From Spartobacteria bacterium (lineage in GTDB: Bacteria; Verrucomicrobiota; Verrucomicrobiia; Chthoniobacterales; UBA6821): 64,000 nt of DNA. The translations under genes and the position numbers were made by a program. Shown piece by piece: positions 15,251 through 56,831 of the stretch (positions are counted from its first letter, which is position 1; every line of letters begins with the position of its first letter). The notes under the pieces were generated by a model, which ran no database searches, was not told the origin of the DNA, and saw only the letters and a list, made by a program, of their open reading frames with translations. The stretch spans positions 320,612 through 384,611 of the forward strand of contig CANIVT010000001.1 of assembly GCA_947471565.1 (NCBI GenBank). The letters are read 5' to 3'.

Positions 15251-15680
15251 GGAAAAATGTAAAATGAAGAATGCAAAAACACCTAATCCCCCTGCATTGA
15301 CGCAGCGAACCAAGGATTTTGCACTCCGCATTATCAGGATGTATTCCTCCCTTCCAAAATCCTCCGTGGCCCAAGTCTTGGGAAAGCAGATTCTGCGTTC
15401 GGGAACATCAATAGGAGCCAATTACCGGGAGGCAAACAGAGCCCGTTCCAAAGCCGAGTTTATTGCCAAAATGGGCGACTCCTTGAAGGAGCTCGATGAA
15501 ACATGTTACTGGCTGGAATTACTCTCTGAATCTGGAACCGTTACCCCGGCAAAACTTCATGATCTTGCGGATGAATCCCGGCAGCTCATGGCGATTTTCA
15601 TCAGCATCATCAAAAGTGCCAAATCTACAAAGATAGACTGATCGCTTTTTTCATTTTCCATTCATCATTTTTCATTTTCC
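15251..15680. mobile_element. Putative single-gene cassette bounded by imperfect inverted repeats
   Basis: The left arm (15251-15280) and right arm (15646-15680) are purine-rich and complementary over about 29 positions with roughly five differences. The only gene inside is the four-helix-bundle protein. Both ends recur in the miniature copy at 13280-13395. The left arm contains the start codon and first residues of the gene. No transposase is present, so mobility would need help in trans. The identification as a mobile cassette is my inference. Confidence 0.55.
15264..15641 (+). CDS. Four-helix-bundle protein (23S rRNA intervening-sequence protein family)
   Basis: This 125-residue protein belongs to the S23/IVP family of pentameric-type four-helix-bundle proteins found inside 23S rRNA intervening sequences and at many intergenic sites. 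Recognisable parts are LTQRTKDFALRIIRMY, the signature LRSGTSIGANYREANRARS, KMGDSLKELDETCYWLELL, and a final amphipathic helix ending FISIIKS. The molecular function of the family is unknown. It interrupts the ABC transporter operon between dppC and the ATPase gene and is enclosed by inverted repeats. Confidence 0.9.
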   Translation: MKNAKTPNPPALTQRTKDFALRIIRMYSSLPKSSVAQVLGKQILRSGTSIGANYREANRARSKAEFIAKMGDSLKELDETCYWLELLSESGTVTPAKLHDLADESRQLMAIFISIIKSAKSTKID

Positions 15681-52365: not shown

Positions 52366-53352
52366 ATGTCCGATCTCCTCCAGAATTACCACTATGATCT
52401 CCCGCCGGATCTGATTGCCGATCGTCCCGCCACAAGGCGTGAGGAGTCGCGGATGCTGGTGCTGGATCGAGGGAGTGGTAAAATCCTGCACCGCGGGTTT
52501 CGAGATCTCCCGGAATACCTCACCCCGTCGGATCTGCTCGTCCTCAATGACAGCCGGGTGATTCCCGCCCGCCTGCACGATCCTTCCGGGAAAATCGAGA
52601 TTCTGCTTCTGGTGCAACGCTCCCCCACTCTCTGGACGGCCATGGTCCGTCCCGGGAAGAAGATGCGGGTTGGAGACCATGCCGAGGTGGCCGCCACAAC
52701 GGCCAAGGTTAAGGAGGTACTTGAAGACGGCACCCGTCTGCTAGAGTTCGCCAAGGAGCCGGATCTCAATCGTTACGGGGAGATGCCGATTCCACCCTAT
52801 TTCCATCGACCTGCCGATGACCAGGACAAGGAGCGCTACCAGACGGTCTATGCCCGGGATCCAGGCTCGGTGGCGGCACCCACGGCGGGGCTCCACTTCA
52901 CTACGAAAATCCTGGCCGGACTGAATCATGCGTTTGTCACTCTCCATGTCGGTGCGGGTACATTCCAACCCGTGAAGCATGATGACCTTTCGCTCCATCG
53001 GATGCACTCCGAGCACTACACCCTTCCGGAGGAAACGGCCCGACGGATCAATGAGACCAAGGCTGCGGCAGGACGCGTCGTCGCCGTCGGCACCACCACG
53101 ACACGTGTGCTGGAGTCACAACCCCCAGGCCCTCTCTCCGCGAGAAGCGGATCAACGGATATCTTCATCCGTCCGCCGTATGAGTTCCAACGGGTCGACG
53201 CCCTGTTGACGAACTTTCACCTGCCGGGCTCGACCCTGCTCATGCTCGTGAGCGCAATGGCTGGCCGGGAAAGGATCCTAGCCGCCTATGAGGAAGCCGT
53301 GAGGGAGCGATACCGATTCTTCAGCTACGGGGACTGCATGCTGATCGTGTGA
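52366..53352 (+). CDS. queA: tRNA preQ1(34) S-adenosylmethionine ribosyltransferase-isomerase
   Basis: This 328-residue enzyme makes epoxyqueuosine in tRNA by transferring the ribosyl part of SAM. Hallmarks are YDLPPDLIADRPATRREESRML, LLVLNDSRVIPARL, VAAPTAGLHFT, HVGAGTFQPV and LTNFHLPGSTLLMLVSAMAG. Length is slightly below the ~345 of most QueA. Tgt, an earlier step of the same pathway, lies 2.3 kb downstream on the other strand. Confidence 0.96.
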   Translation: MSDLLQNYHYDLPPDLIADRPATRREESRMLVLDRGSGKILHRGFRDLPEYLTPSDLLVLNDSRVIPARLHDPSGKIEILLLVQRSPTLWTAMVRPGKKMRVGDHAEVAATTAKVKEVLEDGTRLLEFAKEPDLNRYGEMPIPPYFHRPADDQDKERYQTVYARDPGSVAAPTAGLHFTTKILAGLNHAFVTLHVGAGTFQPVKHDDLSLHRMHSEHYTLPEETARRINETKAAAGRVVAVGTTTTRVLESQPPGPLSARSGSTDIFIRPPYEFQRVDALLTNFHLPGSTLLMLVSAMAGRERILAAYEEAVRERYRFFSYGDCMLIV

Positions 53353-53364
53353 GATCCCGAAAGC

Positions 53365-53550
53365 TCACGCGAACCCGCGGAGAGCGCGGAGGGATTGTGA
53401 ATCTGAAAATCAGGAAGCGGGAAAACAACTGCTTGGAGGACGTTGCTTCTTGAGAGCAAGCAGACCCTGAATTTCTCCTCTTTGTTTTCCTGTTTTCAGA
53501 TTTTCCCAAGGCCTTTTCCCCTCCGCGGCCCCCGCGCCTCCGCGTAAAAT
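53365..53550. repeat. Gene-less extended palindrome related to the GxxExxY cassette ends
   Basis: The outer arms are GC-rich. The left has GAGCGCGGAGGGATTG; the right, read on the other strand, has ACGCGGAGGCGCGGGG. Both match the ends of the cassette at 55183-55682. Inside are a second pair of arms (AATCTGAAAATCAGGAA against AAATCTGAAAACAGGAA) and a central CTGCTTG/CAAGCAG pair. The whole ~185 bp could fold as one nested cruciform. No gene lies in it. Confidence 0.65.
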
Positions 53551-53576
53551 TCCCCGCTTTTAATTCAGTTTTTTCT

Positions 53577-53610
53577 TCAGCCTTTCACCTTTAGCCTTCA
53601 GCCTTTTCCG
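53577..53610 (+). repeat. Low-complexity TTCAGCC repeat before the HD-domain gene
   Basis: CTTCAGCC, TTTAGCC and TTCAGCC words alternate directly upstream of the start at 53611. They share vocabulary with the repeats at 6517 and 11360 and with a degenerate copy near 56845-56875. Confidence 0.45.
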
Positions 53611-54660
53611 ATGCCTCTGCTTACGATTTCTGAACTGAAAAAGGCCGCCCGAGAGTCCTCTCCTGTCGAGGCCTCGGTGCATGCCCAGATCGAGAAGATC
53701 ACCCGCAAGGAGGCCTCCAACGGGAAACCCTTCCAAGAACTCCAGCTTCGGGACGGAGCAGACTCGATGACGCTGCGTGCCTGGAGCGATACCGAGGCCT
53801 TTGAGGCATGCTCTGTACTCGAAACGGGCACCTTCGTGGCTGTGGAGGGAATCTTCAGTCACAGTGCCGCCTTCGGACTTGACTCCAAGCGCTGGGAAAT
53901 TGCGCGGCTCGATGACGATGCCATGGAGGCCCTACTGGAAGGCTCCGAGGAACGCAGGTTACTGCTCCAACGCTGCGACCAGGTGATCACCCAAGCGGTC
54001 GCCTCGATCACTGATCCGAGACTGAAAGCCCTTTGTGGCCGATTTCTGGATCAATACGGAGCGCGGTTCCGTCGTTCCGCTGCCGCCCGGGGAAATCACC
54101 ATGCCCGCCGGGGAGGTCTGCTCGAGCACACCTCGCGGATGATGGAATCGGCGCTCGCTCTCTGCGGTGTCTATCCGGAACTCAACCGCGATCTGATCAT
54201 TTCAGGCGTCCTGTTTCACGACACGGGCAAACTCTGGGAGACCTGCCCGCCGGAACGGGGGTTCGGGATTGTCCCCGAACTGCGTGGCGAACTGCTCGGC
54301 CATCTCTCCATCGGCATCGAACTGGTCAACACCCTCTGGCGCGATCTCCCCAAGGAGGGCTGGGAGGGATTCACCCCCTCCTCCGAAGATCTCCGTCTGC
54401 ACCTGCTCCACCTGATAGCCTCCCACCATGGACAGCTGGAATTTGGTTCCCCGGTGCTTCCCAAGACCCCTGAGGCCGCCCTTCTTCACTTTGTCGACAA
54501 TATCGATGCCCGGATGGAGATGTTCTTCTCGGCTTATCAGTCCAGCACCCCCGGGAGGGAGGGTCCCTTGGAATGGGTCAGGGCCCTCGGCGTCAGCCCT
54601 GTTCCCTCTTTGGATTCCTTCAGGAATCTGGCATCTCCCCAGGACGAGCTTCCGTTGTGA
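53611..54660 (+). CDS. OB-HD domain phosphohydrolase (YhaM-like 3'-5' exoribonuclease family)
   Basis: This 349-residue protein has an N-terminal OB fold (VHAQIEKITRKEASNGKPFQEL, LETGTFVAVEGIFS) followed by an HD domain. The HD metal site is in RGGLLEHTSRMMESAL and VLFHDTGKLWE, with further ligands in LIASHHGQLEFGSP and LLHFVDNIDARM. This is the architecture of YhaM, which trims RNA or DNA from the 3' end. YhaM is usually ~315 residues; the extra length is in the C-terminus. It lies directly after a repeat region. Confidence 0.85.
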   Translation: MPLLTISELKKAARESSPVEASVHAQIEKITRKEASNGKPFQELQLRDGADSMTLRAWSDTEAFEACSVLETGTFVAVEGIFSHSAAFGLDSKRWEIARLDDDAMEALLEGSEERRLLLQRCDQVITQAVASITDPRLKALCGRFLDQYGARFRRSAAARGNHHARRGGLLEHTSRMMESALALCGVYPELNRDLIISGVLFHDTGKLWETCPPERGFGIVPELRGELLGHLSIGIELVNTLWRDLPKEGWEGFTPSSEDLRLHLLHLIASHHGQLEFGSPVLPKTPEAALLHFVDNIDARMEMFFSAYQSSTPGREGPLEWVRALGVSPVPSLDSFRNLASPQDELPL

Positions 54661-54725
54661 TTTTTCGATACCTTCTCTCTTTGAACTTGCAGAGAAAGCC
54701 ATGTGGAAATAGAAAAAACTCCCCT

Positions 54726-55151
54726 GTGAAAACTTCCCCCCTACTCACGATTATCGTTCTCCTCTGCGGTACCGTTGCTGCGATGGCCGACATTCAGGCC
54801 CCGCCCCAATCAGACCAGGGACCGACAAAGAAACTCGGTCGAGGACTGGGAAACATGCTGTACGGTTCCACGGAGATCTTTGACTCCATGTCCAATGTGA
54901 ATTACTCGGAAGGCAATTCCGCCGCTTTTAGCTACGGACTCGTTCGTGGTGTCGGCCGCACACTGGCGCGTCTGGGGTACGGACTATTCGAAACGGTGAC
55001 CTTCCCCTTCCCGACCAATCACGGCACTTACAAGCCCCCTTATCAGAATAACATCCAGTGGCTGAATTCTGGCTACTCAGAGTTCCCTCCGGAAGTCGGA
55101 TTCGAGACCAAGTACGACTACTCCCGCCAGTACTCGAGTCAGAGTTGGTGA
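54726..55151 (+). CDS. Exosortase-system-associated protein (TIGR04073-type)
   Basis: This 141-residue exported protein has a GTG start at 54726 (VKTSPLLTIIVLLCGTVAA as signal). The conserved core is KKLGRGLGNMLYGSTEIFD, then GLVRGVGRTLARLGYGLFE and TVTFPFPTNHGTYKPPY. This pattern matches TIGR04073, a family that co-occurs with exosortase systems in Verrucomicrobia and relatives. No exosortase or PEP-CTERM protein is seen in this window. The molecular role is unknown. An ATG at 54573 lies inside the preceding gene and is rejected. Confidence 0.8.
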   Translation: MKTSPLLTIIVLLCGTVAAMADIQAPPQSDQGPTKKLGRGLGNMLYGSTEIFDSMSNVNYSEGNSAAFSYGLVRGVGRTLARLGYGLFETVTFPFPTNHGTYKPPYQNNIQWLNSGYSEFPPEVGFETKYDYSRQYSSQSW

Positions 55152-55182
55152 TCCAAGTCGCTTGGCGATTTGGAGAGGAAGA

Positions 55183-55682
55183 TCACGCGGAGGCGCAGGG
55201 AGCGCGGAGGAATTGATTCATGGAAATCGACGATATCACCCACGCTGTCATTGAAGATTCCATTAGGATCCACAGAGATCTTGGGCCCGGGTTGATGGAA
55301 TCAGTTTACGAATCAGTTCTTGCCAGTTCCTTGGAACGACGTGGACTCAAAACCGAACGACAAAAGACCGTCCGGTTTGTGTACGACGGTATGACTTTTG
55401 ACGAGGGAATGAGAATTGACCTCCTAGTTGAAAGCCGTCTGATCATTGAACTGAAATCCGTTGAGAAACTCTCTCCCGTGCACGGAAAACAGCTTCTTAC
55501 CTATCTACGCTTGATGGATCTTCAAGTGGGTCTTCTAATCAACTTTGGTTCAGCAACACTCAAGGAAGGGCTTCGCCGCGTTGTCAATCAGCTGCCTGCC
55601 TCGGCATCATCCCACCTGAGAGTTAATCGGGGAAAAATTCTCTAACCCCCTCTCTCCTCCGCGTCCCCGCGCCTCCGCGTGA
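55183..55682. mobile_element. Putative GxxExxY cassette bounded by inverted repeats
   Basis: The left arm (55183-55211) and the right arm (55655-55682, opposite strand) match over 29 positions with one mismatch and one gap, with the shared words TCACGCGGAGGCGC and CGCGGAGGA. The only gene inside is the GxxExxY protein. The GGAGGA at the inner end of the left arm is placed as its ribosome-binding site, 8 bp before the ATG. A gene-less relative lies at 53365-53550. Mobility is inferred. Confidence 0.6.
55220..55645 (+). CDS. GxxExxY protein
   Basis: This 141-residue protein has the family-naming motif GPGLMESVYESVLASSLE near residue 23. A nuclease-like core is visible as MRIDLLVESRLIIELKSVEKLSPVHGKQLLTYLRLM, which contains the D-(x)n-E-x-K arrangement of PD-(D/E)XK nucleases. 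The end has LINFGSATLKEGLRRVVN. The function of the family is not established; a nuclease-like fold is my inference. It is more AT-rich than its neighbours and enclosed in inverted repeats. Confidence 0.9.
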   Translation: MEIDDITHAVIEDSIRIHRDLGPGLMESVYESVLASSLERRGLKTERQKTVRFVYDGMTFDEGMRIDLLVESRLIIELKSVEKLSPVHGKQLLTYLRLMDLQVGLLINFGSATLKEGLRRVVNQLPASASSHLRVNRGKIL

Positions 55683-55685
55683 ACT

Positions 55686-56831
55686 TCAGCTGATTTCGGT
55701 CGGATTCCAGACTCGGTAGCCCGCGACAAACTCCCTGCGGAATTCCGCAAAGGTACCGTCCAGAATCGACGAGCGGATCTTCCTCATCAGAGTCATGTAA
55801 AAATGGAGGTTATGCAGGGTGACAAGACGCAGCCCCAGGATCTCCTCGGCCTTGATCAGATGGCGCAGATAGGCGCGTGAAAAGGTCGTGCACGCAGGGC
55901 AGACACATCCCTCCTCGATCGGTCCGGGATCACGGGTAAAGGGCGCGTTTTTGAGATTCAGTGTTCCATCGGCGGTGAACGCCGTCCCGTTGCGGGCGAT
56001 CCGTGTGGGAAGGACGCAGTCGAACATGTCAATCCCGCGGGCCACCATCTCCACAAGCTGAGGTGGGGTGCCGAGTCCCATGGCATACCGTGGTGACTCC
56101 TCCGGCAGGAAGGGGACGCTGGATTCTACCGCCTTCATCATCTCGGGCTCAGGCTCCCCGACACTCACACCGCCGACCGCATATCCGTCGAACCCGATCT
56201 CCACAAGGGATCGTGCAGAGCGTTCCCTCAGATCAGCATAAGAGCTTCCCTGGACGATTCCGAAAAGGAGCGGCCGTCCCTCCTGGGGTTGCTCCCGCCA
56301 CCAATCACGCGAACGGCGCTCCCAACGGGTCGTGAGTTCGAGACTCTTTGCCGCCTCCTCATAGGTGCAGGGAAACGGCGGGCACTCGTCGAAGGCCATC
56401 ACCACGTCGCTGCCGAGATCCCGCTGGATCTGCATCGAGGTCTCCGGGCCGATGAAGGTGGGAGTGCCATCGAGATGATTCTGGAAGTGGACTCCCTCCT
56501 CGGTGATGCGGCGAAGCTTGGAAAGGGAGAAGACCTGAAATCCCCCACTATCGGTCAGGATCGAGCGATCCCAGCCCATGAAGGAATGAAGCCCACCCAG
56601 ATCACGGATGACCTCCTCTCCGGGACGGACGTGCAGATGGTAGGTATTTCCCAGGATGATGCGGGCTCCGAGAGCCCTGAGCTCGTCAGGGGAGACCGCC
56701 TTGACCGTGGCCTGGGTGCCCACCGGCATGAAGACCGGCGTCTCCACATCCCCACGCCTCGTGTGCAGGATCCCCGCACGAGCTTTGCTGGAGGAATCAG
56801 TCTTGAGAAGGGTATAGGGCGTGGAACTCAC
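55686..56831 (-). CDS. tgt: Queuine/preQ1 tRNA-ribosyltransferase
   Basis: This 381-residue enzyme exchanges guanine 34 for preQ1 in tRNAs with GUN anticodons. The catalytic Asp and substrate pocket are in SILTDSGGFQVFSL and VMAFDECPPFPC. GFDGYAVGGVSVGEP is the family motif. The zinc site is CVCPACTTFSRAYLRHL with a later His in LVTLHNLHFYMTLM. It starts at 56831 (MSSTPYTLLKTDSSS). Confidence 0.97.
   Translation of the reverse strand: MSSTPYTLLKTDSSSKARAGILHTRRGDVETPVFMPVGTQATVKAVSPDELRALGARIILGNTYHLHVRPGEEVIRDLGGLHSFMGWDRSILTDSGGFQVFSLSKLRRITEEGVHFQNHLDGTPTFIGPETSMQIQRDLGSDVVMAFDECPPFPCTYEEAAKSLELTTRWERRSRDWWREQPQEGRPLLFGIVQGSSYADLRERSARSLVEIGFDGYAVGGVSVGEPEPEMMKAVESSVPFLPEESPRYAMGLGTPPQLVEMVARGIDMFDCVLPTRIARNGTAFTADGTLNLKNAPFTRDPGPIEEGCVCPACTTFSRAYLRHLIKAEEILGLRLVTLHNLHFYMTLMRKIRSSILDGTFAEFRREFVAGYRVWNPTEIS

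Follow-up and report, generated by a model that had tools for sequence, protein, structure and literature searches.

A Cas4/RecB-like nuclease gene between inverted tandem-unit arms: a probable small mobile cassette in a Spartobacteria bacterium

What does a small gene of the GxxExxY family do between two inverted repeats in the genome of a Spartobacteria bacterium, and do the gene and its repeats form a mobile unit? We analyzed a 64-kb stretch of this genome (the window; positions are counted from its first letter), the source genome, and related genomes. An earlier note on the window had read the locus as a minimal selfish cassette. This reading is now well supported, because other GxxExxY genes usually have arms, empty sites exist, and the predicted fold of the protein is that of PD-(D/E)XK enzymes. 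The features are listed in Table 1.

Table 1. Features of the cassette and of related elements in the window
Feature	Position	Strand	Description
Left arm	55178..55211	+	three ~8-bp units, TCACGCGGAGG-CGCAGGGAG-CGCGGAGGA; core 55183-55211
GGAGGA, Shine-Dalgarno-like	55206..55211	+	third unit of left arm; putative function
GxxExxY gene, 141 aa	55220..55645	+	PD-(D/E)XK nuclease (predicted fold); D67, E77-x-K79, and Q91xxxY95 conserved
Probable fossil of older right arm	55595..55630	+	now coding (PASASSHLRVN)
Right arm	55655..55687	-	reverse complement of left arm (arm alignment)
Geneless pair	53365..53547	.	window arm type (TCACGCG... / ...CTCCGCG); 1.6 kb from cassette
TIGR02436 four-helix-bundle cassette (L010)	15254..15678	+	arms 15254-15278 and 15654-15678; gene match 15300-15623

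The window locus and its protein

The GxxExxY gene is enclosed by an arm of the form GAAGATCACGCGGAGGCGCAGGGA-GCGCGGAGGA and its reverse-complement partner. The 24-nt core of the arms is 92% complementary, and the pair has a local-alignment score of 51 in a gapped alignment. It is the sole inverted pair in the 64 kb with a score of at least 34 within 700 bp. Three Markov-shuffled windows contained 0, 0, and 1 such pairs. The background for the same geometry, taken at 1,500 random places, had a mean score of 18 and a 99th percentile of 26. The shuffles and the presence of four such copies rule out a chance repeat as the source of the arms. The earlier note had described plain 29-bp inverted repeats. 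The arms are there, but each contains about three tandem 8-bp units of the form CGCGGAGG. GGAGGA was correctly placed by that note: it ends 8 nt upstream of the ATG (55220), in the last unit of the left arm.

The cassette lies between a TIGR04073 gene on one side and a tgt-like gene on the other. As RNA, the element is predicted to form a single long hairpin in which the arms pair (z, -3.45). No Rfam family scored above its threshold over positions 53300 to 55800. A 23S rRNA intervening sequence, which is inserted in a 23S rRNA helix, was rejected as an identity for the element, which lies at the TIGR04073/tgt-like junction. The nearby geneless pair contains a second, nested inverted repeat (GAAAATCAGGAAGCGGGAAAACAA), which suggests that arm elements insert into each other.

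The protein matches the full TIGR04256 model (1 to 116 of 116) with 135.2 bits against a cutoff of 35 (E value, 1.3e-39). It also matches the full model of PF13366 (PDDEXK_3) with 134.7 bits against a cutoff of 22 (E value, 2.5e-39). Across 26 aligned homologues, D67, E77, Q91, and Y95 are invariant, and K79 is conserved in at least 90%. We take this D-ExK-QxxxY set to be the motif set of RecB/Cas4-like nucleases. The AlphaFold2 model has a pLDDT of 87.5, with low confidence in the last ~13 residues. Its matches among solved structures (Foldseek, VIA-align) are mostly PD-(D/E)XK enzymes, and the top match is Cas4 SSO0001 (Z, 9.3; rmsd, 3.1; 101 residues). The protein is predicted to be a member of the PD-(D/E)XK superfamily with a restriction-endonuclease-like fold. 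A possible nuclease had been proposed from the D-(x)n-ExK pattern, together with a comparison to this fold; the conservation of D67, E77, and K79 and the modeled fold both agree with the proposal. A PDB sequence search with the protein gave no significant match, and tblastn across 50,697 phage records gave no match to the gene.

Cassettes and geneless arms across genomes

The source genome contains four GxxExxY genes, and all four lie between arms. The main arm type has the consensus TTTTC(S)CGCRGAGRCGCRGAGRCGCRGAGR; the left arm is purine rich, and the right arm is its reverse complement. A unit-based scan retrieved 23 arm pairs of the CGCRGAGR type within the scanned stretches of this genome, three with a GxxExxY gene inside and about 20 geneless. 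Main-type pairs have interiors of about 10 to 420 bp. The arms of the window gene (TCACGCGGAGG...) differ slightly from the main type and hence are outside the three gene-bearing pairs of the scan. They form a second arm type, which they share with the geneless pair in Table 1. Single or degenerate arms were also present beyond the 23 pairs. Geneless pairs of the same arm type are dispersed in the genome. Plain internal deletion was rejected as their origin, as tblastn found no GxxExxY remnant in the geneless pairs of the source genome; one locus in Sphingomonadales (L226) does resemble such a deletion.

GxxExxY genes were present in 42 of the 58 genomes searched, with a maximum of ten per genome. 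The arm sequences are highly varied between cassettes (CACCAAGG, ACAGAATT, CGCAGATT, GGGATGAA, ATCAGGAA, CACAAAAAG, and more). The format is constant, with about three tandem units of 7 to 11 bp each. In a first set, the flanking arms of 23 of 32 loci scored above every shuffle (fixed window, strict cut), and a rescan added more. Beyond the order, armed genes were found on replicons of Sphingomonas, Bacteroides, Bernardetia, and Gemmatirosa. Four divergent plasmid loci, from Fusobacteria, Persicobacter, Prevotella, and Treponema, have no arms; arms are therefore usual, not universal. The expectation that other GxxExxY genes would carry flanking repeats was borne out in the source genome, at these 23 loci, and in the 25 fabD-fabG cassettes described below, but not at the four divergent loci.

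Geneless arms follow the type of the gene. Genomes with a same-type gene had 43, 8, 42, 3, and 20 arms of the GGGATRAARGRGATRAAAGGGAT type, against 0 to 13 elsewhere; the count of 13 came from a genome with a gene remnant. Their abundance was higher where the same-type gene was present (Mann-Whitney p = 0.003 for GGGATRAARGRGATRAAAGGGAT and 0.0098 for CGCRGAGR), values that are indicative only because the 16 genomes compared are related and not independent. The reversal control is uninformative for CGCRGAGR, a pattern that is identical backwards, and was clean (zero) for the second pattern.

Flanking sequences of 26 elements served as queries in six genomes of the genus. Several sites were near-empty in a relative, with 7, 11, or 31 nt instead of the element. 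At other sites, relatives kept the orthologous element or had a different element. Unoccupied sites, for which the earlier note had proposed a search, were found at these flanks and at fabD-fabG junctions. Several cassettes in the genus were inherited vertically at one site. The tgt junction contains the cassette in the source genome and a broken GxxExxY gene in G002. It contains single arms in three genomes (G001, G003, and G013), other arm families in four (G004, G006, G008, and G010), and nothing similar in two (G011 and G015).

More arm families, such as (AACTCAGG)n, were observed in the genus as geneless inverted pairs at the tgt and other junctions (L085, L086, and L120). GxxExxY genes with similar arms (ATCAGGAA) are also present. 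In G004 (L111 and L170), the ortholog of the L009 site (G000:C1:95800-96120) contains a cassette with GGGTAATAGG arms, not GTTAAAAG. A repeat of ~36 nt like CCGTAACGGATGCGAAGCAACGGCCGGGCAAGCAAA is inserted within CGCAGAG arms in G013 and G004 (L109 and L124).

At one element (L098 1713-1857; G000:C22), the 11-bp word ATGGCCACGCA is present on both sides and occurs once in element-free relatives. This is a possible duplication at insertion, with exact boundaries blurred by divergence. No target-site duplication was seen at fabD-fabG, where relatives are too diverged for exact boundaries. No exact donor-target pair was found among relatives that are ~85 to 90% identical at best.

Gene and arms are transferred as one unit

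In a tree of 76 proteins, the clades match arm families across hosts. Protein and arm distances were correlated over 71 cassettes (Mantel r = 0.67, p = 2e-4), a coupling that linkage alone can produce. The correlation was also present in Sphingomonadales (r = 0.51, and 0.52 with host distance held constant; p = 2e-4), in the window's genus (r = 0.76), and in the order (r = 0.58; p = 2e-4 for each). The window gene and L273 (G011) join Sphingomonas cassettes with TCACGCGGAGG arms, away from the other three copies of the source genome. Their grouping therefore points to transfer of gene and arms between Alphaproteobacteria and the source lineage. The gene and its arms stay together as a single unit, in descent as well as in transfer across phyla.

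The tail of the window protein resembles PSSASPRLRVN and PSASPRLRVNQ, tails that the right arms of the L273 and Sphingomonas cassettes encode. It seems that the window gene has kept, in its 3' end, a decayed copy of an older right arm. From this likeness, it seems that the right arm of the cassette was replaced. The stop codon of the Sphingomonas gene lies in or beyond the right arm.

The first case at fabD-fabG was a plasmid match, with a Sphingomonas cassette between the two genes. A FabD scan of Sphingomonadales, with one genome per species, covered 80 loci. The junction contains a cassette in 25 species (the plasmid counted), with matched arms in all 25. About 30 junctions are short, up to 70 bp, and contain no cassette; the sequence of unoccupied junctions is widely different among species. 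L226 kept both arms but has lost most of the gene. Other junctions contain unrelated hairpins or genes. Hairpin repeats of the CGTCATCCCCGCGAAGGCGGGGATCC type and others were observed at L205, L232, L252, L254, and L256. A different insert of ~800 bp, probably a gene, was present at L222, L229, L230, and L234.

Cassette presence on the host tree requires at least 20 gains or losses. The GxxExxY tree conflicts with the FabD+FabG host tree and agrees with arm type. Three pairs of close or sister hosts (L186/L187, L218/L206, and L191/L193) carry different cassette types. Sister positions in the nuclease tree were rejected for the same pairs by AU tests (p = 4e-11, 8e-6, and 0.026, respectively; pairs picked after the trees had been seen). 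Plain vertical inheritance of the fabD-fabG cassette is ruled out by these tests. The same junction is taken by different cassette types in sister species.

The left and right arms of 24 fabD-fabG cassettes agree at 91% of variable positions. When arms were re-dealt among species 5,000 times, the agreement was 64%, with a maximum of 78%. The order of unit variants is mirrored between the arms in many of these cassettes. The arms stay matched despite sequence change, as would be expected from a single protein that recognizes both ends, from pairing, or from templated repair alike.

A parallel with an unrelated four-helix-bundle cassette in the window had also been drawn, and this cassette is real. 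Its arms contain AAAATGTAAAATGAAGAATG units of the AAAATG type; weak arms of this kind were detected by gapped local alignment. The orthologous sites in the genus have the same kind of gene or none. The source genome contains three TIGR02436 genes, one of them in the window, and all lie between arms of ~8-bp units with other sequences. In the source genome and its relatives, 26 of the 30 loci that could be read scored above shuffles, and arm sequence again follows protein phylogeny (r = 0.35, p = 2e-4, n = 21). The suggested common mode of spread may exist; it is supported by the architecture, which is the same, and by arm-protein coupling, which is present in both.

Explanations, known systems, and significance

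We consider it probable that the window element is a very small mobile cassette, made up of a Cas4/RecB-like PD-(D/E)XK nuclease gene and two inverted arms, and that the nuclease acts on its own arms. The nuclease would recognize the repeated units of these arms, as DNA ends or as a hairpin or cruciform. Through cutting at the arms, its own cassette would be copied or inserted, and geneless arm pairs likewise in trans. Insertion would be mainly into gene junctions. The left arm would supply the ribosome-binding site, and the right arm may often supply the stop codon. Pairing of the arms may loop the insert out of the host transcript, which would make the cassette tolerable inside operons.

The gene and arms could also be one mobile unit that is moved in trans by an unrelated host or phage enzyme, such as a transposase or reverse transcriptase, while the nuclease has another job in defence, as a toxin, or in DNA repair. 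We regard this combination as unlikely. The four-helix-bundle gene within the same arm format fits it, as does the frequency of geneless pairs, and physical linkage would suffice for arm-protein coupling. However, arm types follow protein clades over large protein divergence, geneless copies are enriched where a same-type gene exists, and one outside enzyme would have to handle very different arm sequences within one genome. It is quite improbable that the nuclease cuts an unoccupied allele at one site, in the manner of free-standing homing endonucleases, and repair copies the cassette in, with spread within the genome secondary. Matched arms would be superfluous, several cassettes and ~20 geneless pairs lie at unrelated sites in one genome, and unoccupied junctions differ widely in sequence. 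The repeated occupation of fabD-fabG by different cassette types, the incongruence of nuclease and host trees, and the many unoccupied alleles speak for such homing. We give the least credence to arms that are only RNA processing or translation signals, with repeats spread by ordinary recombination; here, RNase III would cut a stem that protects a resident gene, as it does in 23S rRNA intervening sequences. The arms do pair in the RNA fold and contain GGAGG-like sites, and the left arm covaries with the right; dispersed geneless pairs and different cassettes at one junction in sister species are left unexplained by this reading.

Free-standing homing endonuclease genes recur at one site across species, with a tree unlike that of their hosts. 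The cassettes are similar in both respects and differ in their matched end arms, ectopic copies, and geneless derivatives. Rpn and Cas4 are PD-(D/E)XK nucleases with ties to recombination or DNA acquisition; Rpn proteins are larger, and Cas4 acts in CRISPR adaptation. The window protein shares their nuclease type, but we know of no comparable repeat arms for either.

By analogy, the nearest known logic to that of the window cassette is REPIN-RAYT. The RAYT gene lies between inverted copies of a short repeat that has many geneless copies per genome (PMC3116915, PMC3686654). Each REP/REPIN class goes with its cognate RAYT and is abundant where that gene occurs (PMC3686654). The cassettes share the gene between inverted repeats, the geneless copies, and the tie of repeat abundance to a same-type gene. 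However, RAYT is a tyrosine HUH (IS200-like) enzyme, and the window protein is PD-(D/E)XK by Pfam, NCBIfam, and fold. The REPIN repeat is an imperfect palindrome; the arms here are tandem 8-bp units, inverted only relative to the other arm. Because enzyme and repeat structure differ, the window cassette is not a member of this system. RAYTs are also described as sharing host history, whereas the cassettes cross phyla. MITEs (PMC2229807) are likewise geneless inverted-repeat elements dispersed between genes. Here, no parent insertion sequence or target duplication was found, and the tandem-unit ends are tied to nuclease type.

The intervening sequence of Coxiella 23S rRNA encodes an ORF of the S23p four-helix-bundle family in ~430 nt with paired ends (PMC4990558). 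Three tandem heptamers (GACAGAT) are reported directly before the ORF, and RNase III is reported to excise the element (PMC4990558). It is a small one-ORF element, and its heptamers match the arm format here. It differs in its position within rRNA and in its four-helix-bundle cargo, whereas the window cassette carries a nuclease gene. On this likeness, 23S rRNA intervening sequences may belong to the same class as the arm cassettes. It is a tentative possibility that bacteria contain a broad, still unnamed class of minimal mobile elements with paired arms of about three tandem 7- to 11-bp units, one small gene, and geneless satellites. The gene product, either a PD-(D/E)XK nuclease or a four-helix bundle of the S23p/Avd-like kind, would be dedicated to recognizing its own arms. 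Members of the class that inserted in rRNA would be the 23S rRNA intervening sequences, which have long been puzzling.

We found no description of arm-nuclease cassettes in open-licence papers, so their novelty is provisional. These papers also gave nothing on function for the repeat sequences or the family accessions. The results suggest that such tiny mobile genes make up a class with few descriptions so far. Short tandem-unit repeats (e.g., CGCAGAGG, CACCAAGG, and AACTCAGG) are scattered in the examined genomes and are so far unexplained. If the proposed reading is true, each repeat type would gain a cause, its own small nuclease, with transfer of whole cassettes between phyla. One gene and two ~30-bp arms would be enough to put their mobility to the test. 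The reading would also account for where 23S rRNA intervening sequences came from and would assign a role to two protein families of no known function.
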